From positions 1-28,787 of the IMG/VR virus record IMGVR_UViG_3300024515_000392: DNA of 28,787 nucleotides. One strand, 5' to 3'. This DNA comes from a virus. The stretch's first letter is position 1; each line of letters opens with the position of its first letter. The notes beneath the pieces were generated by a model. It was not told the origin of the DNA and did no database searches. It saw only the letters and a list, made by a program, of their open reading frames with translations. Below are positions 5,046 through 28,787 of this stretch, piece after piece. A program made the translations under genes and the position numbers.

Positions 5046-5428
5046 ACCATGTCTACCTCCCTTTCTGGTAATTCTGTAAATGTGTCATAATACGCATGAA
5101 ACACATTTTTGGCCATTGGGCGTAGCTGCTGCGGAATTACTGCTAGCACGCTAGCATCATCAACATTCAGTTTACGCCCCAGAAGCTCGAAGCAAAACTT
5201 TAAAATATCGCGGACCACGCCTAGATGCAGTTGATTTCGCATCGATATTTCAAAGATTGTATACCCAACTCCCCACTCCTGCAGTAAGACTAACGACATT
5301 GGATGATTATCAATCATAAATCGAGCGTTCTGCTGTAGTGCTTGCTGATACGAGATTGCATCATCGATGGGAAGTCTATCAGTAAAATAATCCCTCAATT
5401 CCTCCCGAAGTAATAGACGACTTTTCAT
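5042..5428 (-). CDS. Hypothetical protein, start uncertain
   Basis: The frame is open from 5512, but that start would overlap the nuclease gene by 134 bases. I prefer ATG at 5428 (128 residues, MKSRLLLREEL), which still overlaps by 50 bases; neither start has a good SD. The protein is mainly helical by eye, with a hydrophobic middle (MSLVLLQEWGVGYTIFEI) and a segment VRDILKFCFELLGRK. No known motif was found. It ends in an ATGA overlap with the next small gene, supporting a real translated frame. It might assist the Cas4-like nuclease upstream, since the two overlap so deeply, but this is inference. Confidence 0.6.
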   Translation of the reverse strand: MKSRLLLREELRDYFTDRLPIDDAISYQQALQQNARFMIDNHPMSLVLLQEWGVGYTIFEISMRNQLHLGVVRDILKFCFELLGRKLNVDDASVLAVIPQQLRPMAKNVFHAYYDTFTELPEREVDMV

Positions 5429-6152: not shown

Positions 6153-6495
6153 TGTCATCTCCTACTGGTGAATCAAATCGCATCTTGATTGTGTATGCTG
6201 ACGATGCAAACATCGACTTGGCAAACTCGAGCTGCTTGCAATACGCATCTAACACAGCTAACTCACCTTTCAATTCTGCCAACTCATCCAACAGTATTGT
6301 TGTGGCTTGGAATCGTTTTGCTCTTGCTGCATTACTTCGAGGCTTGTCGTCCTCGATCACTATCTGTTGCTCAATTCGTTCGATATCACGCTCTTTTAGA
6401 ATGACTAACTGCTTAATACGGCCCAGCGACTTATACGCGCGAGTCATATCATAGTAGTCAGGTGCATTTGATACCCACGTTTGCAGATCACTCAT
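6145..6495 (-). CDS. Hypothetical helical protein in recombination block
   Basis: This 116-residue protein is not recognised. Nearly its whole length is charged and helix-forming, and residues about 28-95 (KQLVILKERDIERIEQQ, then LLDELAELKGELAVLD) look like two coiled-coil arms. There are no cysteine clusters. The start at 6495 has GGGAG eight bases upstream. It overlaps recA by 8 bases and the nuclease by 8 bases, which indicates coupled translation between those two. A structural or loading partner for RecA or the nuclease is plausible from position, but nothing in the sequence proves it. Confidence 0.75.
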   Translation of the reverse strand: MSDLQTWVSNAPDYYDMTRAYKSLGRIKQLVILKERDIERIEQQIVIEDDKPRSNAARAKRFQATTILLDELAELKGELAVLDAYCKQLEFAKSMFASSAYTIKMRFDSPVGDDSE

Positions 6496-9363: not shown

Positions 9364-9664
9364 TGTGAACCTCCAATCGATAAGTCGGAAAGATAAACCA
9401 AAAGCCATCTCGAGATGCTACCAACTGACAATCCTCTAGCACAATAACTAATGAGCCCGCATCAAAAACAAGCCGTAGGCACTTAGGAGTGTACCCTTTA
9501 CCATCCGACCCAACCCGCTTCTCAGGGGGGTTAGTCATGCTAGTGAGCTTCTGCAGCTCAACAGAGACCAGCGTAGCACTGAATGAGTGCGAGCCAAACA
9601 CAACCAGTAGATTCTGGCCAATTAAGGTGGATAAGGCTGTTACTTCTGTACTAGGCTGTTTCAT
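9338..9664 (-). CDS. Hypothetical protein between resolvase and polymerase
   Basis: This 108-residue protein is not recognised. It looks beta-rich (LLVVFGSHSFSATLVSVEL, then LRLVFDAGSLVIVLEDCQLV), with a polar loop around residues 44-58. There is no membrane segment and no metal motif. The start at 9664 overlaps the resolvase stop as ATGA, with GGAGGA in front. It overlaps the GTG start of the polymerase by 26 bases. A polymerase-associated factor is possible, but only from gene order. Confidence 0.75.
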   Translation of the reverse strand: MKQPSTEVTALSTLIGQNLLVVFGSHSFSATLVSVELQKLTSMTNPPEKRVGSDGKGYTPKCLRLVFDAGSLVIVLEDCQLVASRDGFWFIFPTYRLEVHSASANRPE

Positions 9665-10266
9665 GCTTCCTCCAAAATCTGCTTAAATTGCACAACCGTC
9701 AGCAAATAATATAACACGAAGTCAATCCATACACAAGTCACTCCCGGGGATTCTTTGCAAGTCTGTGCTTTACTCAGCGGAAAGATCGCCGTCTTCGTCT
9801 TAATGTTATCAAAACGAAGTATCTTCTCTGTAGTCTCGTTAATAACCGCTATCTGACCCATGTCAACCGCTTTAATCAGCATGTAGTCATCCGTACGACC
9901 ATGATAGCGGAAAATCAATGCTCCGAAAAGTGCTCGTGTCTGCTTTGCCTCTTCGTGTATCTTTCGTAGCCACGCTTTACTGATTGCAATACATGGTTCA
10001 CCATATCGCCAAAGCTCGGTAAGCTTGCACTCAATAAGAAATTTTCCCGGGCGATTATTGAATAGCACAACAACATCACCCTTAGTGGTACCAGCCCCAG
10101 ATTGGGGGGTGCGATCACCCCCAAGAAACTTTGCAATGCGGCGCTCCATTGCCTTGGACCGCTGCCGATTCATACGATTGCGCTCACGTCGCTCTTCTTT
10201 CAGCCGCTCAAATTCTTCGGGCGAAGTGATTGGCTTACTAGTAACTGAACTTTTGCGTGCTCCCAT
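9661..10266 (-). CDS. PD-(D/E)XK nuclease, Holliday-junction-resolvase-like
   Basis: This 201-residue protein has a basic, Arg-rich N-terminal helix (residues 20-42), then the resolvase signature: E41 in ERRIAKFLGG, a Gly/Ser/Thr-rich loop (TPQSGAGTTKGD64) and the catalytic IECK (E79, K81). This order matches archaeal Hjc-like and phage endonucleases that cut four-way junctions or branched DNA. The C-terminal 100 residues are less conserved and may form a dimer or DNA clamp. It overlaps dnaB by 29 bases and the next gene by four bases. The SD is weak (GGTGAT). It would resolve replication and recombination intermediates before packaging. A different nuclease of the same superfamily is the main alternative. 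Confidence 0.78.
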   Translation of the reverse strand: MGARKSSVTSKPITSPEEFERLKEERRERNRMNRQRSKAMERRIAKFLGGDRTPQSGAGTTKGDVVVLFNNRPGKFLIECKLTELWRYGEPCIAISKAWLRKIHEEAKQTRALFGALIFRYHGRTDDYMLIKAVDMGQIAVINETTEKILRFDNIKTKTAIFPLSKAQTCKESPGVTCVWIDFVLYYLLTVVQFKQILEEA

Positions 10267-13179: not shown

Positions 13180-13344
13180 TTAGTCATGCTCCTTGTGCAT
13201 TGCGGCGATTTCTCTCGCCATCGAATTGAGTTCATCAAGCACTGCTTTCCGAATCTCTGGAGTTACTATACCAGACTCCTCAAGCCGTGTCAAGAGTCTT
13301 TTTATGTATTTTTTGTTGATCTTACTGATTTTTAAAGAGTCCAT
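13180..13344 (-). CDS. Small hypothetical helical protein
   Basis: The likely product is 54 residues, MDSLKISKINKKY onward. The start at 13344 has GGAG seven bases upstream, inside the 3' end of the glycosyltransferase gene (23-base overlap). A start at 13371 is possible but has no site. The protein is Lys-rich at the front and helical throughout (LLTRLEESGIVTPEIRKAVLDEL). It ends one base before the ssb-like ATG. The function is unknown; a small DNA-binding or regulatory protein would fit its charge. Confidence 0.6.
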   Translation of the reverse strand: MDSLKISKINKKYIKRLLTRLEESGIVTPEIRKAVLDELNSMAREIAAMHKEHD

Positions 13345-14518
13345 CGATAATCTCCACGAACTGACTTCCAATATTCTTCCATGAGAATTTTGCGCTACGC
13401 ATATGCTCTAATGATTTTTGGCCGAGTTCATTACGCTTTTCTTGATTTGTGTACATGTAGTGAAGCGCTTGAATCGCGCTTTCCATTTCTGTTACATGAT
13501 GAATTGTGTTTAATCCGCGATCTGTAAGTTGAGGGAAGGGATAGCAGTCCATGTACACCGCATTACCTTCGGGCCACTCACTCAAAGCTGAGTGGTTTGG
13601 AATAATTGCCGGTTTTCCTGCAGCCATTGCTTCTGCCACTGGTAAACACCAACCCTCTGCCGCCGTAGTTGTGAAAAAAACATCGGCATTATTATACACC
13701 ATGTTTAGTTGCTGCGGAGTCAGGCCCTTTGCGGCTGTGATATTTGGTGATGAAATTACCAGACGGTCCTCGATACCTAAATACTCACACCACTGAATTA
13801 TATCAATACCGAAATCCTGCAAAGCACCGTGATAGTAGATCTTTACATCCTTAGATAAATTGTATCGCTTCACCCATTCAGAAAAATAATAAAACGTTAA
13901 ATCAAGTCTTTTACGTGGTTGATTACGCTGCAAACACAAAACAATATAGTCCGTATCTTTTAGATTCATTTGTTGACGCAAAATTGCACGCGGCACGTCA
14001 ATGGGGTGAAACATCGTAGTATCTACTCCGTGTGGAACTACAAAGACATCAGCAACGTCTACTTTTGCCAGCTGCTCTTTACCGAAATTAGTGTATGTAG
14101 CTACAGCATCAAATTTCTGAAGCCCTTGTGCAAAATCTTTTTTAACATTCTCTGCATCAATTGGGGTATACAAAACAGTTTTAAACTGTTGATCCTTAAT
14201 TTGCGAAAGAACAGCAACGTAGTCGTTAGCAATCCAAGAGTCATTCAATATAAAAATAACATCCGGTCGAATTGATCGCACCATACTTTCAAGACGTTCC
14301 TTACCCCAAACGTCCCCACCACCAAGAGAAGCCGGGTACACTTTAAGTCCTTCGCACAGTGGGTCATAATCACCGTAATAGTTCACACCCATAATGTGTA
14401 AATCATATTTTTTACGGAACGTTTCAATCAAATTCTTACTGACAACTCCGAAACCAGTTTGCACTGGAAAATCCCCGATGTACAGCATCTTTTTCTGTAC
14501 TGGTACAATTCTTCCCAT
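13322..14518 (-). CDS. GT4-family (GT-B fold) glycosyltransferase
   Basis: This 398-residue protein is a retaining GT-B enzyme. The N-terminal Rossmann half begins KKMLYIGDFPVQTGFG, with a Gly-rich acceptor-side loop. The C-terminal half has VLCLQRNQPRKRLD (phosphate-binding Arg/Lys) and the E-x7-E motif EGWCLPVAE near residue 288, followed by AMAAGKPAI. It would transfer a sugar from a nucleotide-sugar; DNA bases, virion proteins or host glycans are possible acceptors. The start at 14518 has AAGGAG five bases upstream; the frame is open to 14554. It is the second gene after the consensus promoter, between an adaptor-like gene and the ssb-like gene, and far from the other two glycosyltransferases. 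Confidence 0.88.
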   Translation of the reverse strand: MGRIVPVQKKMLYIGDFPVQTGFGVVSKNLIETFRKKYDLHIMGVNYYGDYDPLCEGLKVYPASLGGGDVWGKERLESMVRSIRPDVIFILNDSWIANDYVAVLSQIKDQQFKTVLYTPIDAENVKKDFAQGLQKFDAVATYTNFGKEQLAKVDVADVFVVPHGVDTTMFHPIDVPRAILRQQMNLKDTDYIVLCLQRNQPRKRLDLTFYYFSEWVKRYNLSKDVKIYYHGALQDFGIDIIQWCEYLGIEDRLVISSPNITAAKGLTPQQLNMVYNNADVFFTTTAAEGWCLPVAEAMAAGKPAIIPNHSALSEWPEGNAVYMDCYPFPQLTDRGLNTIHHVTEMESAIQALHYMYTNQEKRNELGQKSLEHMRSAKFSWKNIGSQFVEIIDGLFKNQ

Positions 14519-14528
14519 AAGAACTCCT

Positions 14529-15113
14529 TTAATAGTACTTAGTTCCTGTAACAATATTTACGGGCTGTCTTGTCGATTTCGGCACCGCAATTTTTGTTTT
14601 AAACAGGTAATTTATCTCCTCTAGCAACGCGTCGAGAACGACTTTCATTGCTCTAGAAGACTCAGTATTTGTGTATTTTAAATCTTCTGTTGACCATGAA
14701 ACGAAAGTAGTTGAGCTACTTGTAATCTTAGCCAAATGAATTAAATACACAGCCATTAATACAATGGCATCCTCATCAATCTGCTCAATTACTGGGGGAT
14801 CCGGCTGATCAAAATCTAAAAATGGATTTCTATAAACATCGTTTACATTAAATGATGAACTTATAAATGCATACCCATTAACTGTGCTTACCCACAGTTG
14901 ACCGGACTCAGCAGCCCCCTGAGGTTGTAAGTCTGCAATTGCATCCGCAGTAAGTATCTGGTACTTTGCCCTCCATCGCTTTTGCAGTTGCTTCACAGAG
15001 TTTACTAACGATGTACGCACCAGCGCACTAGAAAATGCCGTACCACTAAAATCACCCAAGCGTATTCGCACTGAGTCGATTAGATAATCAAGATTACCAC
15101 TTGTTGTTATCAT
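14529..15113 (-). CDS. Probable virion adaptor / structural protein
   Basis: This protein of about 194 residues begins MITTSGNLDYLIDSVRIRLGD. That opening, followed by SSALVRTSLVNSVKQLQKRW, resembles phage neck/head-tail adaptor proteins, but the match is weak. The middle is beta-rich; the end is helical then basic. The ATG at 15113 has TAGGAG five bases upstream; GTG at 15119 is an in-frame alternative. The perfect sigma70 promoter lies so close that a transcript from it would begin only about 4-6 bases before the ATG. No enzyme motif is seen. It could instead be an early protein of unknown function. Confidence 0.6.
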   Translation of the reverse strand: MITTSGNLDYLIDSVRIRLGDFSGTAFSSALVRTSLVNSVKQLQKRWRAKYQILTADAIADLQPQGAAESGQLWVSTVNGYAFISSSFNVNDVYRNPFLDFDQPDPPVIEQIDEDAIVLMAVYLIHLAKITSSSTTFVSWSTEDLKYTNTESSRAMKVVLDALLEEINYLFKTKIAVPKSTRQPVNIVTGTKYY

Positions 15114-15153: not shown

Positions 15154-15422
15154 CTTGGAGGTGTCGGCCAAGCAACATTGTTAAATTTTTGAGCTAGTAC
15201 GAGTTCTGGAAAATCTCTTAAAGACTGTCGATACGCGTACCATTCATTTTTGTTAGTTATTGGGGAGTCTGGTAGAACTCTCCAGTCTGACTCACTAAGA
15301 AGTCGGTTCCGCTCTTTTCTAATTACGTCCAAAGCCCACTGTTCATGGGGTTCAATACGCTCTACTCCCGTAGAATCAACCTCAATCCAGCGTACCACAG
15401 GGAAAATTTCAATAACTCTCAT
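15150..15422 (-). CDS. Tail (fibre) assembly chaperone-like protein
   Basis: This 90-residue protein contains ALDVIRKERNRLLSESDW, then EWYAYRQSLRDFPEL and the closing WPTPP. This is the pattern of the small phage tail assembly chaperone family (Phage_tail_APC): an R-x-x-RN helix, a DW, a W-x-x-YRQ-x-LRD-x-P helix and a terminal WP. Such proteins are usually encoded right after a tail fibre gene and help it fold or attach, and that is the arrangement here (ATGA overlap with the fibre). GAGG lies five bases before the ATG. It is not expected in the finished virion. Confidence 0.8.
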   Translation of the reverse strand: MRVIEIFPVVRWIEVDSTGVERIEPHEQWALDVIRKERNRLLSESDWRVLPDSPITNKNEWYAYRQSLRDFPELVLAQKFNNVAWPTPPS

Positions 15423-18262
15423 GTTAACCTCACTACTCTTAAGGCACCAGTTACGCTAGCAGAACTACCGCCGGTATTGTTTACAAAAAGTCCGACAGTA
15501 TCATTTGCACTTAAATAAAATATAGTTGTATTAAGTTGCCGTCCGTCATTAAATGTAAGCCCGGGTAACACCTGTGTACCTGTTGTAAAACTAGTGGCGT
15601 TTTGGCGCACATTCCATGGTAGGTTAGTGGTAGTAGAACCCAGGGCGGCATTTACAATGTAAAGACCGGCATTAGTAACAGTAATTTCGTATGTTGTTGC
15701 GTTCCCTAAAATATTACCGGTACCAGCAACGTTTAGTTGCACTCTTGCAGAAGTACCAGCATTGACAGTCTGCCCCGCAGACCTTGATAAAATTCCTGCG
15801 TCCCTATGTGAAATACTACCGCTAACAGTTACATTACCACGAATATCGGTATTCCCGTTTGAGGCTGTAATACTAACTTTATTGGTGTTAATCGCAAGAT
15901 CACCGGTAACTCCTAAAATACCTGCAACTGACGTATCACCTGTAGAAGCTGTTACATTGAATTTGTTTGTATTAACTGCAAGATCACTAGTAACTCCTAA
16001 AGTACCTGCAACTGATGTGTTACCTGTAGAAGCTGTTACTTTAAACTTGTTCGTGTTAACTGCCACGTCGCCTGTAATTGTAACTGCACCTGTATTAGCC
16101 TCGACATTAAAAATACCTACTCCTGCTGTAGAATTTAATGATATTCTATCACTACTTAACTCATACAAAGTTGTTTGATCAGAATCGTATCCTCTAATAG
16201 AACCTGTTGGAATATTAGGCGGTGTACCCGGAGTTCTTCTCATATCAAAGTTACCATTATAAATTCTAAACTGACCTGTATAAGATTCTTTAAAATTTAC
16301 ATGAACCGCCGCAGTATTGTCGGAAAGATTATTTGCAATCTCCAATGTACTTGTCCCATCTAAATTAATTGATGCGAGCGGCGTTGTTGTACTTTGAGCA
16401 ATATTAAACATAGCTATACCTTGCAGATCACCGGATGTTCCAGAAGCTACAATAGTGAGCACGTTAGAATTAAGCGAGGGTAAAGCCGCCTGCGTAAGCG
16501 GGTCTGCTAAACTACCGACACTCATTCCATAAGTATTAATTTTTGTTTGACCCGCAGTAATTGTACCGTTTACTGTGAGACTTCCAGTATTTGCTGAAAC
16601 TGCTTGTAGATTAGTCACTGAAATTTTGTCAGAAGTAATTGCACCAGCTTCAATATTTTCGGCTTTTATGCCACTTATCGTTAATAAGACACCCGAAATA
16701 GTTCGTGCGGCGATTTTATCTCCAGTTATAGTGTTTGCCTGTATTTTAGTTGCTGAGATTGTGCCGTCAGTAATAAGCACACCTGATACAGTGCCTGCAA
16801 CTATTTTTTGACCGGTTATAGTTCCATCTGCAATCTGAGCAGCTGTTAAAGTCGAAGTGGCTATATTGTCTGCAGTAATAGTTCCCGTTGTAATAAGGGC
16901 ACCAGATATTGTATTTGCTGCAATTCTATCGCCTGTAATAGTGTTCGCTGCGATTGCATATGCAGTCACGGACCCAGCAGCCAAATTGTTCGTCTGTACT
17001 GCACCAACGGCGAGCTTTCCACTGATAACAGCACCGCTAGCTAATGCGGCTGAGGTGACTGCTTCTGGGCCCAGTAAATCAGCAGTAACACCGCTGAGCA
17101 CAATTTTATCAGCCGTTATTGTTCGTGTTGTAATATTATCCGCCGTGATTGAGTTAGCTGCAAGACTTCCTGCAGTTATACCGCTGACCGCAATTTGCGT
17201 AGATGTAATAGTTCCTGCGGTGATTAAAGAGCCTGAGATTGTAGCTGCTGCAATTTTATCTCCGGTAATTGTATTAGCTTGTATGTTACTAGCGGAGATT
17301 GTGTTATCCGCAATTAACACTCCGGATACAGTACCTGCCACAATTTTTTGGCCTGTAATTGTTCCATCAGCTATTTGGGATGCAGTAAGAGTGCTAGAGG
17401 CAATTCGATCTGCGGTTATTGTCCCGGCCGTAATTAATGATCCTGAAATTGTCGCGGCTACGATCTTGTCTCCAGTGATAGTTGATCCTGCGATAAGCAC
17501 GCCAGATATTGTACCAGCTTGTACTTTATTACCAGTTACTGTTCCATTAGCAATCAGAACACCCGATATTGTGCCGTCGATAATCTTACCGCCATCAATG
17601 CTTTTTTCGCCAATTAAGCCTGACCCTACTACAATAGAGTCCGAAACTTGTAGTGCAATTGTATCGATAAGCGTTGAAGACACATGATACGCCTTAATAG
17701 AGTTAACTTCTATATCATACTTTTGTATAATTTTTCGCGGAAGTATTTGACTTATGCTATAAGTACTTGAGCCCGAGTGAGTAATTGTGAAAGCACGACT
17801 TACTAGAGGACTAGGGAAAACTACTGAGTATGTACCCGGAGTTGTAATCGAGAAGCTGTTTGCAAATGGATTTTGCGGTGTGTCATCGTAGTAAGTCGCA
17901 ATAAATAAATCGTCTAAACCACCTTCACCAGATACTATATAAGGTCCGGCAATGTACGCGGGATTACTGTCGCCCGCGTACTCCATTGACTGCACATAAA
18001 AAGAAATTGAACCACTGGTTGTTAGAGTAATACTACCATAGCGATCCAGCTGACTCGTTGTTACAGTAGTCTGATGTACCCCTGCTGGATATGCTAAATA
18101 CTGTTCCGAATTATCCGAGTACAAATCGTTTGGATTTAGAGAACCGGATTGAGTAGGGTATGAAAACAGAAGAGGAAGTTGAGTCTGAAATCTTCCATAC
18201 GAGTCAGCGTAAGAAATAGATTGCTCTGTGTTTAAATTTAATAGATAATCCGAGTTTGTCAT
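15419..18262 (-). CDS. Tail fibre with decapeptide repeat stalk and C1q-like tip
   Basis: This protein of about 947 residues is organised as follows. Residues 1-225 form the presumed virion-attachment part with beta-rich segments. Residues about 229-558 hold about 33 uninterrupted decapeptides with consensus x-x-T-I-(T/S)-(G/A)-x-x-I-x, probably a beta-helical or trimeric stalk. Residues about 559-730 are a second beta-rich stretch. Residues about 731-814 contain three copies of a 28-residue repeat (VNTNKFKVTASTGNTSVAG). The last 130 residues (NAGLYIVNAALGS, then FYLSANDTVGLFVNN) resemble a C1q/TNF-like trimeric head, a plausible receptor-binding tip. The start at 18262 overlaps the previous gene as ATGA, with GGAGG five bases upstream. 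The assembly chaperone gene follows directly. Confidence 0.85.
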   Translation of the reverse strand: MTNSDYLLNLNTEQSISYADSYGRFQTQLPLLFSYPTQSGSLNPNDLYSDNSEQYLAYPAGVHQTTVTTSQLDRYGSITLTTSGSISFYVQSMEYAGDSNPAYIAGPYIVSGEGGLDDLFIATYYDDTPQNPFANSFSITTPGTYSVVFPSPLVSRAFTITHSGSSTYSISQILPRKIIQKYDIEVNSIKAYHVSSTLIDTIALQVSDSIVVGSGLIGEKSIDGGKIIDGTISGVLIANGTVTGNKVQAGTISGVLIAGSTITGDKIVAATISGSLITAGTITADRIASSTLTASQIADGTITGQKIVAGTVSGVLIADNTISASNIQANTITGDKIAAATISGSLITAGTITSTQIAVSGITAGSLAANSITADNITTRTITADKIVLSGVTADLLGPEAVTSAALASGAVISGKLAVGAVQTNNLAAGSVTAYAIAANTITGDRIAANTISGALITTGTITADNIATSTLTAAQIADGTITGQKIVAGTVSGVLITDGTISATKIQANTITGDKIAARTISGVLLTISGIKAENIEAGAITSDKISVTNLQAVSANTGSLTVNGTITAGQTKINTYGMSVGSLADPLTQAALPSLNSNVLTIVASGTSGDLQGIAMFNIAQSTTTPLASINLDGTSTLEIANNLSDNTAAVHVNFKESYTGQFRIYNGNFDMRRTPGTPPNIPTGSIRGYDSDQTTLYELSSDRISLNSTAGVGIFNVEANTGAVTITGDVAVNTNKFKVTASTGNTSVAGTLGVTSDLAVNTNKFNVTASTGDTSVAGILGVTGDLAINTNKVSITASNGNTDIRGNVTVSGSISHRDAGILSRSAGQTVNAGTSARVQLNVAGTGNILGNATTYEITVTNAGLYIVNAALGSTTTNLPWNVRQNATSFTTGTQVLPGLTFNDGRQLNTTIFYLSANDTVGLFVNNTGGSSASVTGALRVVRLT
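15818..16069 (-). repeat. Three 84-base tandem repeats in the tail fibre gene
   Basis: Three consecutive 28-residue units share a VNTNK-x-x-VTAS-x-G-x-T core. The first two are nearly identical (NTNKF, VTASTG, TSVAG, LGVT); the third is more diverged (INTNKVSITASNG). They lie between the stalk array and the C1q-like tip and probably form repeated beta-arches. Confidence 0.85.
16589..17578 (-). repeat. 30-base periodic decapeptide array with a 270-base internal duplication
   Basis: About 33 decapeptides in register encode the fibre stalk. Blocks starting at 17488 (17219-17488) and 16948 (16679-16948) are two copies of a nine-block, 90-residue unit with the same order of variants (ITGDKI, ISGSLIT, ITADRIA, LTASQIA, ITGQKIV, VSGVLIA). 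The copies lie 540 bases apart, start to start. The periodicity removes stop codons from antisense frames, which explains the long plus-strand frames there. Confidence 0.85.
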
Positions 18263-20481
18263 TTGACCCTCCATATATAACCGTAAGTATATTTGTTAGT
18301 CGGCAGTGACAAAGTCGAACGAACAAGATGTTTTGTCACATTAGCTACTCCATACTGTCTAACAAAGTCAAAAGGAAGCAAGATACTTAACCTGTATTTT
18401 TGATTTGTTGTAAATTGAAGTGCCTTAGCTATTAGTTTTCTCTGATCGCTGCTTATAAGTATCTTTCTTATTTGAGAGCCACCTATTAAAAACTTTTCAA
18501 TTGAGTAATGTACCCCCTCGACCAACGGTAGATTAATAGTCGAGTATTTGTATGTTTCGACTTTATTTACTATCTGAGCATACTCTGCAATACAAATCAA
18601 TTTAGTATTAAACGAAAATGATTCGTTTATTGGTACCGAGATACTATCAAAATCAAACGTTGTAGCCGAGATGACGCGTAGTTGATTTACAACATCAAGC
18701 GGTGTGCCATTTACTGTTAATGCAGTGGATGGAATTAACGACTTAGGTTGAAAAATAGAAGATCCGGTAATTTGTCCGTAAAACACCCACTGCTGGGGAT
18801 TAATAAACGGTGACTCCGCCCGCGTAACGACGGTGGGTATGTTAGTAAAGGCAGAAGTTGCTAATTCGTTAAAAAAAGAATCGTAAAAAGTAAACGACAG
18901 TTGTTTACTAGTTGTCATAAGGTAAAGCGCAGCTAATTCAGTGCTGGTAAGATTAGTCCACTTAAACAAGATATCCACCACGTTTATGTTAGTTGTACTT
19001 AACGGTGCCGAACGATCGGCGGACACTTGAAACGAAGTCTCGATATTGCTAAGACTGACTGAAGTATAATCGGCTTGATTAACAAACGACTTACCTACAC
19101 GAATACTACACTTTTGGAAAAAGACACCATCTGCTTCAACTTGAGTTGAAGAGTAAGTATTAGAGTGTGAGCCGCTTTTAAAAGCAGTGAACTGAGACGC
19201 TGGGCTTGCCGTCCTCTTACTCACTGACCCAATTATCAATAATTGTCCAGAGGCAGTATCTAACTCGATTCCTCGTAAATTTTCTTTCATAACATACTCA
19301 CTCAGTTTTAATTGATACCGTAGCTGCACCGGATTTTTAGGTTCACTAGTACTTTCATGAAGAAGCTGATTAAAAATCCCAGCTGAAGTACTAACTGGTG
19401 TAACTCTAAGACCAATTGTTACATTGTAGAGATTATTTTCAGCTTTGTAAGAGCAGGTATAATTACTAGTATCTAAATTTAACTTTGATGTTGTCGGTTT
19501 ATGTGTAAAATTTGAAAAAAATACTCCCGTATAAGTAACCGTAGTGGAATCAGGTTTAAAAAAGTAATTATATGTCAATTTAGGCTGATCTATGTAAAGA
19601 CCACTAACCGCATCAATAACGTAGTCACTCATACCTAAAGACTCGTTTGCAGTAAATAACGTGTTGGTTGTTATAGGTAATTTTAAAGAACTATTAGTCA
19701 ATAAATTGTTTTTCAAAAAAGAAAAAGAAAGTTGACCCGATCGAGTAAATTTCCCGTTAAGAAGAATTGAAAGTTGATTACTGTTTTTATTGTAGACCGG
19801 GACAGATACAGAGGCACTTGAAACAAGTGGCTCAGGTGACTCTACTTGAACTAAATACTCAAACTTTACTTGCAGAGAAAATCCTGTTTGATACTCACTC
19901 GAACTTGTAGATCGATACAAAAAATCAAGTTGCATTGTTAAGCTAGATAAGTTATTTCTAAAATAAACGTACGGGTCTCCTATTTCTACTGAATCTAATG
20001 CTGCGAGAATACTTTGTAATTTATAGTGCAAAGCGTCAGTCAAAAGAGAAGCAATCTTACTAGCACTAATTTGGATATTAAAATTTGCAGCATCAGTTAA
20101 ATTAGCATTTGCGTAATTCTGAACGGATTGAACAAGTGCCTCTTGATTAGAACGAGTTGCTGTGAATTGTGTAAGTTGAACGTTTAACAGCGAAGGGACT
20201 ATTAAAAAATCGTACAATAACTCTTGATCTTCGGTAAACGCAAAAATGATTACATCACTTAACTTAAAAAAAGTAACAAACGAGTTAATCATTACCTGCT
20301 GTGCCGACCGAGCGCTGCTGTAAATTAACTGGACATTAGATATTCTAGAAATCTCTGTTGTCTGATTATCTAAAAGTGCAAAGGAAGTGTCTTTGAGAAA
20401 ATCATTGATATCTGGATAGCGAAGATCTATCTGATAGTTATTATCAATTCTTGGAAGGGATCTACGTTTGTTATCTGACAT
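18259..20481 (-). CDS. Large tail structural protein, unknown family
   Basis: This 740-residue protein is not recognised. It is Ser/Thr/Asn-rich and looks beta-rich almost throughout (for example SVSVPVYNKNSNQLSILLNG and FTAFKSGSHSNTYSSTQV). It has a helical N-terminal section (residues about 95-165, VQNYANANLTDAANF) and no enzymatic motif. It starts as TAATG on the stop of the previous gene with GGGGGTG upstream, and ends as ATGA into the tail fibre. Size, composition and position between hub-like genes and the fibre suggest a baseplate or fibre-base protein. By eye it is A+T-rich like its neighbours. Confidence 0.7.
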   Translation of the reverse strand: MSDNKRRSLPRIDNNYQIDLRYPDINDFLKDTSFALLDNQTTEISRISNVQLIYSSARSAQQVMINSFVTFFKLSDVIIFAFTEDQELLYDFLIVPSLLNVQLTQFTATRSNQEALVQSVQNYANANLTDAANFNIQISASKIASLLTDALHYKLQSILAALDSVEIGDPYVYFRNNLSSLTMQLDFLYRSTSSSEYQTGFSLQVKFEYLVQVESPEPLVSSASVSVPVYNKNSNQLSILLNGKFTRSGQLSFSFLKNNLLTNSSLKLPITTNTLFTANESLGMSDYVIDAVSGLYIDQPKLTYNYFFKPDSTTVTYTGVFFSNFTHKPTTSKLNLDTSNYTCSYKAENNLYNVTIGLRVTPVSTSAGIFNQLLHESTSEPKNPVQLRYQLKLSEYVMKENLRGIELDTASGQLLIIGSVSKRTASPASQFTAFKSGSHSNTYSSTQVEADGVFFQKCSIRVGKSFVNQADYTSVSLSNIETSFQVSADRSAPLSTTNINVVDILFKWTNLTSTELAALYLMTTSKQLSFTFYDSFFNELATSAFTNIPTVVTRAESPFINPQQWVFYGQITGSSIFQPKSLIPSTALTVNGTPLDVVNQLRVISATTFDFDSISVPINESFSFNTKLICIAEYAQIVNKVETYKYSTINLPLVEGVHYSIEKFLIGGSQIRKILISSDQRKLIAKALQFTTNQKYRLSILLPFDFVRQYGVANVTKHLVRSTLSLPTNKYTYGYIWRVK

Positions 20482-22769
20482 TAAGGCACCCCCATAGTCT
20501 CTGCGGCATATCGGACATCGCCTTGTAAGTAGTAGCGTTCGCCATGAGAAAGACCTTCTAAAGAGTCAAATCCAAGTACAATAGTTTCTAAAACGTCACC
20601 GCAAAGTGACTGCTCTTTTAAAAACTCAAATTGAAGTGCAGCGGGCCAAGTTGCTACTGGATTATCTCGGTAAACTTTATCAAAACCACCCCACCCAATA
20701 CGTATATTAGTCCCACGAACAATTAGATAGTCGGCCTGACGCGTATTTGAGTAGTAAACCGTAGCGCGCTCCAATTTAGAATAGAATCTATCAGCGTCAT
20801 TTGAGGTAGAGCCGGCATTCATATACTTGTCATGATGATTTAAAAAACTTTTAGGTTTTGTCCAGAACACAGGAATATAACGATAAATATCAAGCTGTTC
20901 AGTAAGCAGTTTAACTGAATTAAGTCGAGTGTTTATTTCATTAAGATGATTAAGTAGCCCACTATAAGTAATTGAATTAAATGAATTATACCTTTCAAAT
21001 ACATCAAGATTATATTCTGTGTTGATTCTTGAAACGTCTGTTAAACGAAACGTTCCAATATAACTTGCTTTTGAGTACGTAGCTCCTTCTGCTGATTCTT
21101 GCAGATCAACAGAGAAATCGCAGTAATCATCGCTACTTTCTATGTAATAGGAGGAATGATTACTTAAACCACTGTAAGCCTGATAGATTAAAGGATAAAA
21201 TCTATTTGTATTCTCAATTTGGGGAATAAGTGAGAAATTGAAAGAATCCGCATAATACAATGCGTTATTATCTGAACCACGTTTAAAAAAGTCAATGCTT
21301 GTTCCCAGTACAGTAGTTGCGGCATTATTATAGTAGGATACCGGATTAAATGTAGACGGATTAATAAAGTAAAAACCGTTAAACTCCGGAGCAAACGAGG
21401 CCCCGTAATTTGCGTTGTTTTCTAATCCGGCTGACGAACCCGCATAAAAAAGAAAATACCCGGGATCAGGAAAATTTGGCGGTGTTGTGATACTTACAGC
21501 CGGTGATCTACTACTAGGACCCATGGTTTGAAGAAGGCCTTGACGAGCGACCTTTCCCTCCATTTTAGAAAAGGAGACTGCCTTATTATTAAGTACTGTA
21601 GAATACCACTGAGGAACAGCAGCCTTACTTTCTTTATCTAAATCATATCTATACCAAGCAGCGCTTGTTACTTTCTTAGACAAGATACCTAACATTGTAA
21701 ATCGAGTAAGTGTGTTTGTGCTTGTGGCATAGCTTACTCGTATTGTATTCTTTAAATCAAAGCGTTTTTGAGTATAATAACGTGCTTGTTGAGCCACTCT
21801 GCTGGCACTTAGATAATTCCAGTTTTGAATTAACCCGTACAAATAATTTAACATATTGTATTCTCGAACAGACTTAAAAACATGAAAATTAGAGCCGACA
21901 AGTACTTGATCCCACAATGCAACTCGTAGTGGATTATCATAAACTTTGAAATAATTAACTAGATACTGTTGATTTTTAATTAAGGTTTTTATATCAGACA
22001 ACGATTGAATCGATTCTAAATTCTGCCATGTGTTCGGTACAACAGAGTGATCTATATTTGCATAGATCATACTAAAATAGTACGTGGACGTAGCATTGTC
22101 GGCGTCTCTATTAGGATTGTTAGATGTTGTATTATACGGTGCAATACGAAACTTTATACTTACTACCTCACCCGGAGTCAAATCTAAATTAGTAAGATCA
22201 ATTGAAGCATACGAAATATTTGTATGATTTGCGGCAAGCGTCAGTTCTTCAAAAGTGTTTACTGGAGAACCAAACGCAATATTAGGATTGTATCGCCATA
22301 TTCTATTGTATTTACCGTATTTAGTCTGATTTTTTATCTGTTCGTGAATTGGTACGTCAGTATACTTTAAAGTAGTGAATAAGCAAATACTACCCATCTT
22401 TCCGTCTACGTGACGAAATAATTTTCCATTTGCGCTGTAGTTTGCGCGATACGATTGAAAAGCGACTCGTAGTGTGTGCATACCTTCTCTGTACACAAAA
22501 CTACCTTCCCATACGTCAATCTCAGAAAAGCGGAATTTCTTGCCGCTAAGCGTAATTACCTTACCATCATTACCCGTAACGCTAATATCTCCGGTATTAC
22601 TTAGAAAAAACATCGGAGGTGCGTACGCCCAGCTGCTAAGAAAGAGACGATCAGGTCCGTTTACAATCTGCTCAAGAACTTCAGTATTTTGTGCTAAATT
22701 ATTTAAATCAGCGGCCGATAACTCTTGCCCATCAAATAGTGATGGAAGAGTCGAAAGCGCAAAAATCAT
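20481..22769 (-). CDS. Large tail/baseplate structural protein, unknown family
   Basis: This 762-residue protein is not assigned to a family. The N-terminus LFDGQELSAADLNNLAQNTE, then VNGPDRLFLSSWAYAPP, is a pattern I recall from phage structural proteins with an attachment helix. The rest is Tyr/Asn/Ser-rich, beta-type sequence with a helical insert (residues about 235-335). No catalytic motif, signal peptide or membrane segment is seen. AAGGAGG sits seven bases before the ATG. It lies between the putative hub gene and another large structural gene, so a baseplate or receptor-binding complex component is most likely. Confidence 0.7.
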   Translation of the reverse strand: MIFALSTLPSLFDGQELSAADLNNLAQNTEVLEQIVNGPDRLFLSSWAYAPPMFFLSNTGDISVTGNDGKVITLSGKKFRFSEIDVWEGSFVYREGMHTLRVAFQSYRANYSANGKLFRHVDGKMGSICLFTTLKYTDVPIHEQIKNQTKYGKYNRIWRYNPNIAFGSPVNTFEELTLAANHTNISYASIDLTNLDLTPGEVVSIKFRIAPYNTTSNNPNRDADNATSTYYFSMIYANIDHSVVPNTWQNLESIQSLSDIKTLIKNQQYLVNYFKVYDNPLRVALWDQVLVGSNFHVFKSVREYNMLNYLYGLIQNWNYLSASRVAQQARYYTQKRFDLKNTIRVSYATSTNTLTRFTMLGILSKKVTSAAWYRYDLDKESKAAVPQWYSTVLNNKAVSFSKMEGKVARQGLLQTMGPSSRSPAVSITTPPNFPDPGYFLFYAGSSAGLENNANYGASFAPEFNGFYFINPSTFNPVSYYNNAATTVLGTSIDFFKRGSDNNALYYADSFNFSLIPQIENTNRFYPLIYQAYSGLSNHSSYYIESSDDYCDFSVDLQESAEGATYSKASYIGTFRLTDVSRINTEYNLDVFERYNSFNSITYSGLLNHLNEINTRLNSVKLLTEQLDIYRYIPVFWTKPKSFLNHHDKYMNAGSTSNDADRFYSKLERATVYYSNTRQADYLIVRGTNIRIGWGGFDKVYRDNPVATWPAALQFEFLKEQSLCGDVLETIVLGFDSLEGLSHGERYYLQGDVRYAAETMGVP

Positions 22770-22781
22770 GACATCTCCTCC

Positions 22782-24518
22782 TTAAAATGAAAGTAACTTT
22801 GTATCAGTAGCCTGATAGCTGTTACCAATTATAAAAAAATCTTCGCGCTCTGCTAGATCGTTTACGTCTACACAAGCAAGATCCATACGCGCTCCTGTAT
22901 TTTTAACAATAATTTCAACAATTTTGTACTTACCCTTAACTTGGTAAAACGTACTATTAACAGAAACAATGTCCCCTAAGGCCAATGTCGGATTATAAAC
23001 CAAGTCAGTAAATCGATGTACAGGTCTAGGTCGTTTATGAAGATACTTTACAATTTCAAGCATACGCATCGCGTGATCCTTTGATTGAACATATGCATTC
23101 TCACTCATACGAATTTCTCTAAAACCGGAGGGAATAATACCAGTCTGTACAAGCCCGCTAAACACAATCGGTATATCTTTTTTGATTGTTTGTTGTTCAC
23201 CGGCAATTAAAGGAATTCCGTAAAGTGTTAATTTACTTAAGTATAAACCACGACCTACGTCGTCATTACGGACAAACACCTGCATAAACTGTCCGGGTGT
23301 CTTTGTAACGTCCTCAATGACTGTCCAGTAACCGGACGCAGCCACTGAATCCCAAAACCATTTATTTTTAGGATACATTACTTCATTTAACCGTGGAACT
23401 TTTAGAGAGACAGAGGCAGTGTCGCCGTTAAAATCAACTGCTTTTACAAAATCGCGACTTGTAATGTACTCATCAATTCCAAAGTAACCGCCGCTAGCGG
23501 CAAAGCTAACACCGGATCCGTAGTAAGTATTATTAGTTAATCTACTGACTGGTTGCGGAAACTCAACATCATGTATGTACTCTTCGCCGTATGGTAAGTA
23601 TTTACCAAGACTTGCATCGATTAAAGCTTTATTTGCTCCAAGAAATCGCGGCGAGAACGTTGTGATAACTTTACCAAACGTCACCGCAGCCTCGTCATCG
23701 ATAGATAAAGAAGAAAACATTGAATCAGTAATTGTAAAATTATTTTTTGATTTTGTAAACGAAAGGGCATTTACAAACTGCACTACACCATTCGCTGATT
23801 GCGTTAGCTGACCGCCGCCTGCAATAGCTAAAGCGGTTAAATCTTGTAGAATGTCTTCGCGATTCAACCACGTAAACCGAGGGGAAATTATAGACGCGTC
23901 ACAGTCAAAGTAAAACCGTGGAATTTGATTGGTCTCTTCTAAAAAAGTCTTATACTTGTACGGCCTGCCTCCGCATAGCCAGAATACTGTATTAATTGTT
24001 CCTATTGTGGTACCACTAAGCGTGGTAGGATTTTGAGAATTATACAACTGCCCCCAGATACCGCTTACTGATGTTGAGTAAGGTGTTGGTGGATCAGGTA
24101 TAACGGTAGCGGCAGGTTTATTCTCCCACAAAGGTGTGAGGTGCTTATAGTACTCCACATGTCGTAAATACCCACAAGCTTTAAATACCACTTGTGTCAG
24201 ATTTTCTTGGCGTGACTCTAAGAATCCAGCAAAAGCAGGATAAAAATTAAGGGCGTCTATTGAATAGAGTACGAGAATATTGGCCAATCTCCAGTTGTAC
24301 TGACGATCCGCAAAAAAATTATACGCGGATTTAATAAGCGTTATTGAACACTCCGGCGGTGCCATCTGTCCAAGGGTTACGCCCGAGGTTAATTCAGTAG
24401 CCATACTATGTGATATACCTATATCTTGCACATACTGGCTAGGTATTAAATTTGCTGGTTGATCTACCTTAGTATTAATCGCAGAAACATAAACACGATA
24501 CGAAAGTTGATAGTTCAT
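22782..24518 (-). CDS. Putative tail hub / tail-tip protein
   Basis: This 578-residue protein has a mixed beta-rich layout. The segment DILQDLTALAIAGGGQL (about residues 220-236), followed by VVQFVNALSFTKSKN, is like the modules of phage tail-hub proteins. The C-terminus (LVYNPTLALGDIVSVNSTFY; KGKYKIVEIIVK) has the repeated beta-barrel character of tail-associated lysin N-domains and gp27-type hubs. No lysin domain is attached. It overlaps the previous gene by ATGA with a weak GAGTGG site. Order after the tape measure (small protein, then hub) matches many siphoviruses. The family call is by context and general character. Confidence 0.55.
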   Translation of the reverse strand: MNYQLSYRVYVSAINTKVDQPANLIPSQYVQDIGISHSMATELTSGVTLGQMAPPECSITLIKSAYNFFADRQYNWRLANILVLYSIDALNFYPAFAGFLESRQENLTQVVFKACGYLRHVEYYKHLTPLWENKPAATVIPDPPTPYSTSVSGIWGQLYNSQNPTTLSGTTIGTINTVFWLCGGRPYKYKTFLEETNQIPRFYFDCDASIISPRFTWLNREDILQDLTALAIAGGGQLTQSANGVVQFVNALSFTKSKNNFTITDSMFSSLSIDDEAAVTFGKVITTFSPRFLGANKALIDASLGKYLPYGEEYIHDVEFPQPVSRLTNNTYYGSGVSFAASGGYFGIDEYITSRDFVKAVDFNGDTASVSLKVPRLNEVMYPKNKWFWDSVAASGYWTVIEDVTKTPGQFMQVFVRNDDVGRGLYLSKLTLYGIPLIAGEQQTIKKDIPIVFSGLVQTGIIPSGFREIRMSENAYVQSKDHAMRMLEIVKYLHKRPRPVHRFTDLVYNPTLALGDIVSVNSTFYQVKGKYKIVEIIVKNTGARMDLACVDVNDLAEREDFFIIGNSYQATDTKLLSF

Positions 24519-24931
24519 ATCTGCACCACTCTAAAACTTACTGTGTAATATGGAACGTTTGTTAGCGTTACCTCATTGGCCGATAATTGCTCCGACCATG
24601 AGTTTGGGTCAGGAATAACATTATAGGTCTGACCCTGAATAACAAGGTTAATGCTTGTCCCAGATAACGCAACTGAGCGGTAGAACGCTTTTAGTTTTTC
24701 TACGGTCGCAAGAGGGTAGCCTTGTGGCGCAGAGTAACGAATCAAGTTCCATGTAAACGTCCACTGGTCTTTAAACGAACGGTGCATATAGTGTACCGAT
24801 CCGTCCACCGCTTCAAGCTTATCTCCAAAAGTCACTGTGGTTTTTTGAACCGAGCTTGCTTTCGCGTCCATATAGAACACGGTTGTTCCTTGATAGCCAC
24901 TAAAGTATATCGGACTTAACTCATATGTCAT
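24515..24931 (-). CDS. Small distal-tail-like structural protein
   Basis: This 138-residue protein is beta-rich (MTYELSPIYFSGYQGTTVFY; YYTVSFRVVQI at the end) with one helical segment (TVEKLKAFYRSVAL). Its position immediately after the tape-measure-like gene and before the hub suggests a Dit-like or tail-completion protein, but it is shorter than typical Dit (about 200-300). AAAGGAG lies four bases before the ATG, directly abutted by a 13-bp hairpin. No motif confirms the role. Confidence 0.6.
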   Translation of the reverse strand: MTYELSPIYFSGYQGTTVFYMDAKASSVQKTTVTFGDKLEAVDGSVHYMHRSFKDQWTFTWNLIRYSAPQGYPLATVEKLKAFYRSVALSGTSINLVIQGQTYNVIPDPNSWSEQLSANEVTLTNVPYYTVSFRVVQI

Positions 24932-24994: not shown

Positions 24995-27900
24995 TTATCC
25001 TTTCTCACCAGTACGTGGATTGGTGAGAAAAGCATCTTCTCCATTACCCCCGCCTTGATTAGTGGATACCGTTCCCGGATTATCAATTGCATCTGCCTCT
25101 TTACCAAAAAGTACGACACGCAGTACGTTTTTCCCGTTTACTGTTGTACCGTAGGCAGATAAACTTGATGGTCCTAAATTATCATCTGCGCTTTTCATAC
25201 CTTCGGCGGTAAACCTGTTTGATTGAAGGTTTAAGGCGGCCATCATATCTGTGTAGCCTTGCGTACCTTCTGGATATAGTGAGAGCGCCATTGCTCGATT
25301 TGTGTTGCTCATAACATTTTTTGCTTCTGTATATTTTCCAGCATCAAACAGTATATTTGCTTCCATAAATCCACGCTGATAGTTTGTGGTTGCCGCCATA
25401 ACCCCTGCCAACTTTGCCGGAACTGCTAGTGCAATTTCCGTGGCAGCGTCACCAAACGAGCGAACCATGTCCTCTTTTGCGCGGGTAAATCCTCTATACG
25501 CGTCCGCTAACGTCTGAGCATTTTTAATATTAAAATCTTCTAATTGAGTTACTAGTCCAGAAATAGTACTTTGAGTGCTTTCAAGAATATTTTTACCAGC
25601 TTCTCTCCAACTATCTGCCCACAATGGTGCAGTTTTTGTCACTGCCTCAATTTCGTTTGCATTCTGCTGAAGGGCTTGACTATTCTTTTCAAGAGCTACT
25701 CTGTTATCTTCGATAGCATCCTGAGCAGAGCGCATTTCTTCTGGGGTTTTTGCCTCGGCCAATCTTTTTTGCAATTCAGGGCCTTGCTGCTCCAGTCGCC
25801 GTCGCTCACGTTGTAAATCATCGCGATTACGTAACGCTTGCTCTTTTCGTGCTGCAAAATCTAATTCCTGATTTGCCATCTCGTCAACGTACTTACGGTA
25901 GTTCATCTCACGATCTGGACTTCTGCCAAGGTAACCAAGTTGCAATTGAGCGGCGGATTTTTCATCTGTGTTCGTAGCATTATCAAAACGAGCCTGTGCT
26001 GCTGCTCTACGTGATCCAAGAAGATCAGTTACTTTTTTCCACGCTGCTTGCTTGACTTCGTAGTTATCCCATGGCACTGCATTGTACTCAGCAAATGCAG
26101 TTTGTAGTTCGCTATCCTGCATACCCTCAGGTGTTTTAAGGTACCCTCCAACGTCGGCTTCACCAATATGGGAGGCTTCTTGTTGGCCTTGCTCACGTTT
26201 TGCAGTAATGCGAGCTTTTTCAGACGCCGATACGTTTGCACCAACAGCGTTAGTGTAAAACGACGCAGTACCCTGACGCTTCTGCGCTTCAGCCTGCTGT
26301 GTTAATTGTAACATATTTCTTGTGTAATTGCGATGAATATCTTCGAGTGTTCGCATACCATTTCGATTTATATCCTCAAGGCTGCGATTATGATTAATAT
26401 TTGCGTCACGCATACGGAACCCAAACTGAATATTTCTATTTACTAACTCTGTATTTGCTTGCGCGGCTTGCATCGCTACTGACTGCATTGTTGCTGGATT
26501 ATAAAGCATTTTTGAAGGATCACTTAGCAAATCTTCAGAAAACTTTAATGTTCCACGCGGTCCCATAGTGTATCCCATATTGTATGATGGAGCAATATAT
26601 CCGGGACCGGAAACACCAAACGTTGTTGGATTGTTATACCCAAAAAGATTGGCGTTATTCATTAACACACGATTTTGCAACGAGCTTTGTACATTAAATC
26701 CGCTCATTTGCTGACTTAATTCCAAGAAACCACGAGGGTTTCCTTGAGACAAGTAGGTTGTAAGCATTTCTCCGCCGTCAGCAGCATTCATCATTGTCTG
26801 CACAAAATTGCTATACGTCCCTTTAACTTGAATGTTAAACTGACGAGTAATATCTTCTTGCTCTTTGTAAGCTTGAATTTGACTCAAAAGTATTTTTACT
26901 GCCTGAGCTTGAGCGTTTCTAATGTTATCGCCCGCACTCTTGTCGTACTCAACTCCGTCTACAAACTGAGATCGATTCAATACTTGCATGGCATTTTGTT
27001 CGATGCGTTGGCGCGTGGTTAACTGAGTAAAGTTAGGCATTCCGTAATTGTTTGCCATTAGTGCTTGTACAGACCTATCAGGTGCATTGTATGCAGTAAG
27101 CGCATTAACCGCATTAGCATCTGTAAATTGAGTAAACCGCTGCTGTGTAAGTTGATACAGCTTCTCCATACTCTGGTCTGTGTATTCTTTTGCAAATCGT
27201 TGAAAATTAGCTCGTGAACTTACAGCGATTAACTGACTATTTACTTCATCTTTTTGACTATCAGATAGGCCGTAGTATGTTTGCTCATCTATAACTCTAT
27301 TCTGCAATGTACCGAGCATACCTGATTCAAAACGCTCACCGCGAGGTATGTCAGGGCGATAACGCACTTTTATACCATACTCTTGTGCAAATGCTAATTC
27401 TTTGGCCATCTCAAATGTGCGAGTAGCAGCCCGATTAAAATTATTAATTTCAGATGCTTTATTTTTTAACAAATCTTCGGCAACTGTATCAGGCGTTCCT
27501 GCTGCCTGAGCTGCAGCTGCTCTAGTATTAAGTGCAGTTATCTCTCTAATTGCAGCAAATACTGTGGATTTTTCACCAGTAATTGGATTGTTAACCATTA
27601 CCTCGTATACGCGTTTTTCTGCTTCGCTTAGACCATTGTATCGCTCACTTATTACTTTATTAGTAGCTTCTAACTCTTGTGCAAACTGAGCAGACTCTGC
27701 GTAATAATTTACCTGAGATATAGGGCTTGCGGGGCCGCCTCCGCGGCCTCCTCCGCGACCGAATCGTTGGCCATTTTTCTTCGCTTCTTGATAAAGACGT
27801 TCCCTTTCTTTAGCGGCTCCTTCATTGTAAACCTCATCTGCAATCCCTTGGTATACTCGACGCTGTTCAATTTCTGATTCTATGCGATATAACTCACGCT

Positions 27901-28787
27901 GTTTTGCTGAACTTGTATCGTTTACATCTCTATTATATGCATAACCAAGATACGCCCCGCCTGCAAGACCTGCCGCAATCAAAGCAGGAGCAGCTACAGG
28001 AATTGCTGCAGTACCCGCTGATGAAGCAGATCCTCCAAGAAATGTGAATAAACTTGCTATGGGAGATGTAGCAGCTGCAGTACCCGCGGCTGAGTTCAGT
28101 GCGAAAAGACCGCCACCCAAAACTGCTCCACCACCAACTCCAAATAACCCAGCAGTACTTAAGTACGTATCACGAAAATACTGACTACGAGCTTCATCCG
28201 AAACAATTGGATTTGCTCCTAAACCAAGTAGTGCTGCTTGTTTATTAACTGAGCCTCTTCCTTGATCGGCAGCGGTTTGTTGCAGTATTTCTAGAGCAGC
28301 TCTTTTGGTTGCGTCTGATTCATTGTATACTCGTGCATACCCTTGCTGAACAAGTATTGAAGCCAAGTCTACATTATTTGCACTAATATCGCCTATAGTA
28401 CGGCCGTAAGGGTCTAATCCGCCACGTCTACGCAATCGTAGTTGCTTTCCTGCTAGAAATTTACCGGCTTCTTCGGTTGACTCAGCACCTGCCTCTGTAG
28501 CACTTTCTGGAGCGTCGATACCAGCAATACGAACTCTCTCTTCTTTACCTGCTGCATTCCTAACTATGTAGGTGTCTGCGTCAAGCTGTCTAACAAGCGT
28601 AACCTTCTCACCGGGATTAGATATGTTTGAATTAAACGTTTTAGTGCTTGCCCGACGGAACGCATCTCGCTCTCGTTGCCTACCTTCAGCAGACGCTGTG
28701 TTGTAAAATCCCAACTTTCTACGCTGACCCATAAATTCTTCAGATGTATTAAAGTCGCCATTGGTATCACGCATTGCTTTAAGAATA
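24995..28787 (-). CDS. Tape-measure-like virion protein with SNase domain, 5' end cut
   Basis: At least 1264 residues are visible and the frame is still open at the right edge. The first ATG (28774) has no SD, so the true start is probably outside the window. From that Met, residues about 57-165 form a staphylococcal-nuclease-like domain with its key residues: D67 in DADT, R82, D87 and E90 in GIDAPE, and R125 in PYGRT. A Gly/Ala-rich hydrophobic stretch follows (about 205-275), then GRGGGRGGG near 340, long helical Gln/Asn/Arg-rich sequence, and a strong coiled coil (about 980-1060). Size, helicity and position before tail genes indicate a tape measure or an ejected internal protein. It should act inside the tail and perhaps enter the host. 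Confidence 0.75.
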   Translation of the reverse strand, partial: ILKAMRDTNGDFNTSEEFMGQRRKLGFYNTASAEGRQRERDAFRRASTKTFNSNISNPGEKVTLVRQLDADTYIVRNAAGKEERVRIAGIDAPESATEAGAESTEEAGKFLAGKQLRLRRRGGLDPYGRTIGDISANNVDLASILVQQGYARVYNESDATKRAALEILQQTAADQGRGSVNKQAALLGLGANPIVSDEARSQYFRDTYLSTAGLFGVGGGAVLGGGLFALNSAAGTAAATSPIASLFTFLGGSASSAGTAAIPVAAPALIAAGLAGGAYLGYAYNRDVNDTSSAKQRELYRIESEIEQRRVYQGIADEVYNEGAAKERERLYQEAKKNGQRFGRGGGRGGGPASPISQVNYYAESAQFAQELEATNKVISERYNGLSEAEKRVYEVMVNNPITGEKSTVFAAIREITALNTRAAAAQAAGTPDTVAEDLLKNKASEINNFNRAATRTFEMAKELAFAQEYGIKVRYRPDIPRGERFESGMLGTLQNRVIDEQTYYGLSDSQKDEVNSQLIAVSSRANFQRFAKEYTDQSMEKLYQLTQQRFTQFTDANAVNALTAYNAPDRSVQALMANNYGMPNFTQLTTRQRIEQNAMQVLNRSQFVDGVEYDKSAGDNIRNAQAQAVKILLSQIQAYKEQEDITRQFNIQVKGTYSNFVQTMMNAADGGEMLTTYLSQGNPRGFLELSQQMSGFNVQSSLQNRVLMNNANLFGYNNPTTFGVSGPGYIAPSYNMGYTMGPRGTLKFSEDLLSDPSKMLYNPATMQSVAMQAAQANTELVNRNIQFGFRMRDANINHNRSLEDINRNGMRTLEDIHRNYTRNMLQLTQQAEAQKRQGTASFYTNAVGANVSASEKARITAKREQGQQEASHIGEADVGGYLKTPEGMQDSELQTAFAEYNAVPWDNYEVKQAAWKKVTDLLGSRRAAAQARFDNATNTDEKSAAQLQLGYLGRSPDREMNYRKYVDEMANQELDFAARKEQALRNRDDLQRERRRLEQQGPELQKRLAEAKTPEEMRSAQDAIEDNRVALEKNSQALQQNANEIEAVTKTAPLWADSWREAGKNILESTQSTISGLVTQLEDFNIKNAQTLADAYRGFTRAKEDMVRSFGDAATEIALAVPAKLAGVMAATTNYQRGFMEANILFDAGKYTEAKNVMSNTNRAMALSLYPEGTQGYTDMMAALNLQSNRFTAEGMKSADDNLGPSSLSAYGTTVNGKNVLRVVLFGKEADAIDNPGTVSTNQGGGNGEDAFLTNPRTGEKG

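Follow-up and report, generated by a model that had tools for sequence, protein, structure and literature searches.

The tail tube of a phage is filled by its tape-measure protein (TMP), which leaves it together with the genome; TMPs are known with wall-cutting enzymes and, in one case, with an RNA polymerase. The Thermus phage P23-45 provides that case, as its gp96 is a 5,002-aa TMP with a virion RNA polymerase together with membrane and metallopeptidase domains (PMC10770324). The TMP of mycobacteriophage TM4 has a peptidoglycan-hydrolase motif and helps entry (PMC1796659). A staphylococcal nuclease-like (SNase) domain has been described in a different virion protein, the baseplate hub of BtI1, a homologue of gp147 of phage 0305phi8-36 (PMC2147016). 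The gene that we describe here, from a viral contig of 28,787 bases (the whole of which we call the window), shares part of its design with each of these systems. Like P23-45 gp96, it encodes a giant TMP that combines a nucleic-acid enzyme with putative membrane segments, but the enzyme of gp96 is an RNA polymerase that lies at the N terminus and has a DxDxD motif, whereas the window TMP has nuclease domains and the TMP of its relative G001 an SNase. The TM4 TMP likewise has an enzyme within it, although one that targets the cell wall and not nucleic acid. In BtI1, as here, an SNase is joined to a virion tail protein; however, that protein is a hub and not a TMP, its SNase replaces the peptidoglycan hydrolases of its relative, and no activity is known for it. 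The stand-alone phage SNases (PHROG 452; found in cyanophages and as the SPbeta-like NucH) have the fold and catalytic residues of the TMP SNase, but they are small separate genes, whereas the SNases of the TMP and of a neck protein discussed below form a clade of their own and, in the TMP, lie within frames of thousands of codons. Polyvalent proteins also combine many domains in one large phage protein and are proposed to enter the cell along with the DNA, but the survey that describes them mentions neither a staphylococcal nuclease nor a tape measure in its main text (PMC5512222), whereas here the carrier is a TMP. Our literature search, with most subscription journals outside its scope, turned up no description of a tape measure with a nuclease, and within the literature searched, PMC2147016 was the only relevant precedent for a tape measure with an SNase, thermonuclease or exonuclease. 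Enzyme domains in TMPs and an SNase in a baseplate hub are already known; a nuclease in a TMP is apparently new.

The minus-strand frame 24995-28786 is free of stops up to the end of the window, which holds the 3' portion of the gene (24995..28787, minus strand; 1,263 codons), while the 5' three quarters lie in two further contigs, L002 and L006. L002 shares 13,790 identical bases with the window and extends the frame by at least 1,355 codons, to an open-ended total of 2,614; L006, which comes from another sample, overlaps L002 by 761 bp at 100% identity and provides the gene start, 3,027 codons upstream of the ATG at position 28774 (ATG28774). The composite protein is about 4,286 aa long, with the SNase internal to it at about residues 3,084-3,207. 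An initial annotation of the window had placed the SNase at the N terminus of the protein, which is contradicted by the frame running on upstream of ATG28774; this ATG lacks an obvious ribosome-binding site and is not the start. Because the full-length protein of the window lineage was pieced together from contigs of two samples, we sought single-contig versions in relatives and found TMP ORFs of 4,476 aa in G001 and 4,665 aa (counted from the first methionine) in G003, and one in G002 that is ended by the contig edge at 4,470 aa. Such continuous ORFs of 4,476-4,665 aa exclude the possibility, left open at first, that the SNase frame belongs to a separate upstream gene. They also bear on the concern that assembly or gene calling has artificially joined a stand-alone SNase gene to a TMP, which might be suspected as the majority of viral SNases are small separate genes. 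Eight contigs cover this part of the TMP (window/L002, G008, G001, G002, G003, G004, G010 and G013), and in every one of them the SNase occupies the same slot within one open, stop-free frame; an artefactual join is refuted by these independent contigs, and we regard it as wholly improbable.

Gene order and similarity to annotated TMPs both support the identification of the giant gene as a tape measure, and agree with the tape-measure-like protein of the initial annotation. Upstream of it on L006, the gene order is canonical: it begins with the end of a major capsid protein gene (a weak match) and a 170-aa gene, followed by a head-closure gene (Hc1; PF05521, PHROG 25/161/615), a gene of 176 aa in the Ne1 position, a terminator-like gene and a tail-tube-like gene (both weak), and, last before the giant gene, a tail-chaperone pair whose frames, of 133 and 129 aa, overlap in +1 phase. 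G003, L057 and L060 share this order and these gene sizes. In L006, L031, L057 and L060 the giant gene follows the tail tube and a frameshift-type chaperone pair and precedes the distal-tail gene, with the tail-tube and distal-tail genes named mainly by position. The chaperone pair (L006:2997-3660, L031:8969-9632, L057:3043-3706, L060:7601-8264) has a start offset of 274 in 4/4 contigs, and since the overlap is in +1 phase, the frameshift needed is +1 or -2 and not the common -1. Independently of position, the C-terminal core of the G001 TMP resembles TMPs annotated in phage D6E (1e-9) and in Brevibacillus phages (8e-4 to 3e-6, with Abouo/Davies at 3e-6), and the matching stretch overlaps the most conserved block of the TMP, which contains the motifs FDPAQGM and SLSRRF. 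In the window, the C-terminal part of the TMP (24998..27634, minus strand; residues 381-1259) is mostly helical by inspection, and its w of 0.14 against L003 shows purifying selection.

The phage family is uncultured, and its sequences all come from metagenomic contigs. It probably consists of long-tailed bacterial viruses; the neck and tail layout points to a probable siphovirus-like morphology, with no sheath gene seen in an unsystematic look, and the giant TMP gene suggests that the tail is probably very long. Directly downstream of the TMP, a 138-aa gene at the distal-tail position (24515..24931, minus strand) has no match in Pfam and PHROG searches, and is followed by a 578-aa gene at the tail-hub position (22782..24518, minus strand), which served as the hook for finding the family; both roles are suggested by position. 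Beyond these lie three long genes of 762, 740 and 951 aa (15419..22769, minus strand), of which the 951-aa gene matches PHROG tail-fibre and virion-structural families. This fibre-like gene (15419-18274) has internal repeats, and is 951 aa in the window against 1,178 aa in G003 (L032:10372-13908), beside a well-conserved hub gene. Elsewhere in the window, the replication module includes two PD-(D/E)XK nuclease-like genes, one at 5379-6158 (minus strand; PF12705 with a Cas4-like match) and one at 9661-10266 (minus strand; PF24608 just below cut-off). Two genes, at 538-1950 and 13322-14554 (both minus strand), appear glycosyltransferase-like by eye only, the latter adjoining the tail module, and a glucosaminidase/endolysin-like fragment lies at the window end (2-373, minus strand; PF01832 just below cut-off). 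A scan of genome contigs for a prophage relative found none. The DNA polymerase has its best match in Pseudanabaena phages, at 29%, and since the matches of DNA polymerase and ThyX are spread over many hosts, we draw no conclusion about the host.

The SNase domain lies at 28235..28606 on the minus strand (residues 57-180 from ATG28774). Its match to Pfam PF00565 (28253-28537; residues 80-174, counted from ATG28774) has E=3.2e-12 for the whole ORF and E=5.9e-13, or 49.6 bits, for the excised domain; with scores of 47-50 bits against a cut-off of 21 bits, a chance match is excluded. The SNases of the relatives also exceed the PF00565 cut-off. In a phmmer alignment, residues D65, D67, R82, D87, E90 and R125 (numbered from ATG28774) correspond to the catalytic D19, D21, R35, D40, E43 and R87 of staphylococcal nuclease, and the 60 matches listed against PDB chains are all staphylococcal nuclease (thermonuclease, nuclease A). 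An AF2 model built from a six-sequence alignment has an OB-fold core with pLDDT of about 80-90 and segment ends of low confidence, and Foldseek aligns it to staphylococcal nuclease in the PDB with a best E of 9.5e-10 and a TM-score on target of 0.72-0.79. The initial annotation had recognized an SNase domain in the frame 24995-28787, named D67, R82, D87, E90 and R125 as its key residues, and proposed a fold prediction as a check. The Pfam match (E 3e-12) and the fold match bear out the domain, all five residues stand where it put them, with D65 now added, and the predicted structure shows the OB fold of an SNase core, with staphylococcal nuclease as its match. The frame therefore encodes a genuine SNase domain.

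The domain is also under purifying selection, with dN/dS of 0.17 (window against L003) and 0.24 (G001 against G003). Identity between lineages is about 40%, and in six aligned SNases 6/6 catalytic positions are invariant, against 46/166 positions overall; a simple hypergeometric calculation that treats columns as independent puts the chance of this at about 4e-4. The two residues before the active-site arginine R125 (YG) differ among relatives, and conservation is poor, at 48-49% identity, in two linkers (residues 28-56 and 301-380). Both the fusion to the TMP and the intact active site are well supported by these comparisons, and we consider it quite likely that the SNase is catalytically active. 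The inactive binding module that had been offered as one option is disfavoured, as all catalytic residues are kept across lineages at this level of identity.

Other enzyme-like domains of the TMP are less constant. Outside the window, the window-lineage TMP contains a DnaQ-like DEDDh exonuclease domain at about residues 1,611-1,871 (L006:8501-9445). The excised region matches PHROG 192 (E 2.2e-11) and PF13482 (26.3 bits, where the cut-off is 22), and has the Exo I/II/III motifs FDLET, GHNIKEFD and HDAFTD; a single-sequence AF2 model is poor, with pLDDT of 43, and tblastn of the region gave no significant match. The DnaQ-like domain is absent from the G001 and G003 TMPs, which have at this slot a weak DUF4326-like domain (L033:9715-10197, minus strand, and L031:15247-15729, plus strand) with E values of 0.003 and 0.001, below cut-off. 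A search for the P23-45-type RNA polymerase motif DxDxD found none in the window and G001 TMPs and one DIDSD in the G003 TMP. The SNase is thus constant, while the TMP slot upstream of it varies between DnaQ-like and DUF4326-like domains. Such domain mosaicism in these virion proteins might suggest that the SNase is a passenger domain used for structure or binding, copied between virion genes with catalysis not selected, and the authors of PMC2147016 did invoke intragenomic transfers for the SNase of the BtI1 hub protein. We nonetheless find this quite improbable, given six catalytic positions that are all invariant at about 40% identity and w of about 0.2.

A scan of viral contigs with the SNase alignment gave 80 loci, of which 79 were examined. 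Seven of the 79 belong to this TMP family, with 1,404-3,203 codons of the gene on the contig, and the other 72 are in ORFs of at most 309 codons. Among these 72, five (L056-L060), which represent one sub-clade of the family, are a neck gene at the Ne1 position with an SNase inserted mid-gene (L057:1212-2075, L060:5773-6636 and L056:3752-4615; also L058 and L059), and the remaining 67 are small separate genes. The Ne1-position protein is 287 aa with the insert, its catalytic residues kept, versus 175-176 aa without; the insert is present in 5/12 Ne1 records and absent from 7/12, and the genes of L006 and G003 are among those that lack it. L057 and G001 share 99.6% identity over 4.6 kb, so that TMP and neck SNases both occur in very close phages, although on different contigs. 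A maximum-likelihood tree places the SNases of TMP and neck in a single clade (99/99), separate from 45 stand-alone viral SNases. The SNase may have been acquired once and then copied between TMP and neck genes, which we call likely rather than shown, as long branches meet at the TMP and neck group and the root is unknown. Searches by tblastn of 50,697 phage records with the whole ORF and the window SNase gave no significant match. The G003 SNase reached 482 phage records; the matches listed fall in endonuclease, nuclease or hypothetical genes, none of those listed is annotated as a tape measure, and three unannotated ones are separate ORFs of 156-198 aa.

The presence of the SNase in two proteins of the DNA conduit, the TMP and the Ne1-position neck protein, raises the possibility that it grips or trims the leading end of the phage's own genome in the tail or neck, with a role in packaging or ejection. 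The lambda Ne1 protein gpZ is required for full infectivity (PMC4362835), and the DnaQ-like exonuclease of the window-lineage TMP would also be consistent with such a role. However, the SNase lies in the C-terminal third of the TMP, which by analogy would be tip-proximal and far from the genome end at the neck, and a neck copy missing from 7/12 records is not required; on balance we think that a role on the phage's own genome end is unlikely.

A different role is suggested by what follows the SNase in the TMP. Two hydrophobic segments found in a hydropathy scan, the first AGLFGVGGGAVLGGGLFALNSA (28088..28153, minus strand) and the second SAGTAAIPVAAPALIAAGLAGGAYLGYA (27938..28021, minus strand), are the only two above threshold in the whole window-lineage TMP. 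In three divergent full-length TMPs (window lineage, G001 and G003), strongly hydrophobic stretches occur only directly after the SNase: two in the window lineage, two in G001 and one longer stretch in G003. Our best explanation overall, to which we assign a probability of about 0.6, is a catalytically competent, virion-borne TMP SNase that is presented at the membrane during genome entry. On this reading the SNase has the conserved TMP core on one side and a hydrophobic hairpin on the other. The TMP would exit the tail ahead of or with the DNA during infection, the hairpin would become embedded in the cytoplasmic membrane, with the adjoining SNase displayed at the entry site. SNase-family enzymes use Ca2+, and from this family knowledge, the low-Ca2+ cytoplasm of the virion-producing cell may keep the SNase quiet while the cell envelope switches it on. 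It could then cut host or rival DNA or RNA, its presumed targets, at the start of infection. Membrane insertion beside the SNase is proposed by analogy with the TMPs of lambda, which is near the inner-membrane ManYZ during injection (PMC13190303), and of P23-45, whose TMP-borne RNA polymerase binds phage DNA in infected cells (PMC10770324). The parts of this explanation differ in strength: the SNase is very probably present in the virion, whereas it is about as likely as not that it reaches the envelope or cytoplasm as a working nuclease. Against the explanation, an active SNase so close to the exit pore would put the genome of the phage itself at risk, and the variable YG before R125 also counts against it.

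Staphylococcal nuclease is itself secreted and Ca2+-dependent, which counts in favour of an action outside the cell, where the SNase would clear extracellular DNA or other nucleic acid from the cell surface as the tail tip opens. TMPs are known with surface-acting enzymes such as peptidoglycan hydrolases (PMC1796659). Yet a TMP that stays inside the tube until triggered cannot act before binding, and the neck copy of the SNase is far from the surface, which makes surface clearing distinctly unlikely in our estimate. Returning to the display of the SNase at the membrane, an extended form of that explanation would include the neck copies and the DnaQ-like exonuclease of the window-lineage TMP: the family may arm its DNA-conduit proteins with nucleases, injected via a membrane-anchored TMP and cutting host, rival or defence nucleic acid at the entry site before phage gene expression. 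We put forward this broader idea only tentatively.

Should the SNase prove active and be delivered, a DNA- or RNA-cutting enzyme would enter the envelope with the tail as the genome goes in. The host defence SNIPE cleaves the DNA of phages beside the tape measure (PMC13190303), and the TMP SNase would, if this is true, act at the same place as that defence. This raises the question of how the phage genome could pass an active nuclease without harm. The family offers a natural comparison here, with the SNase constant and the other enzyme-like domains of the TMP swapped.
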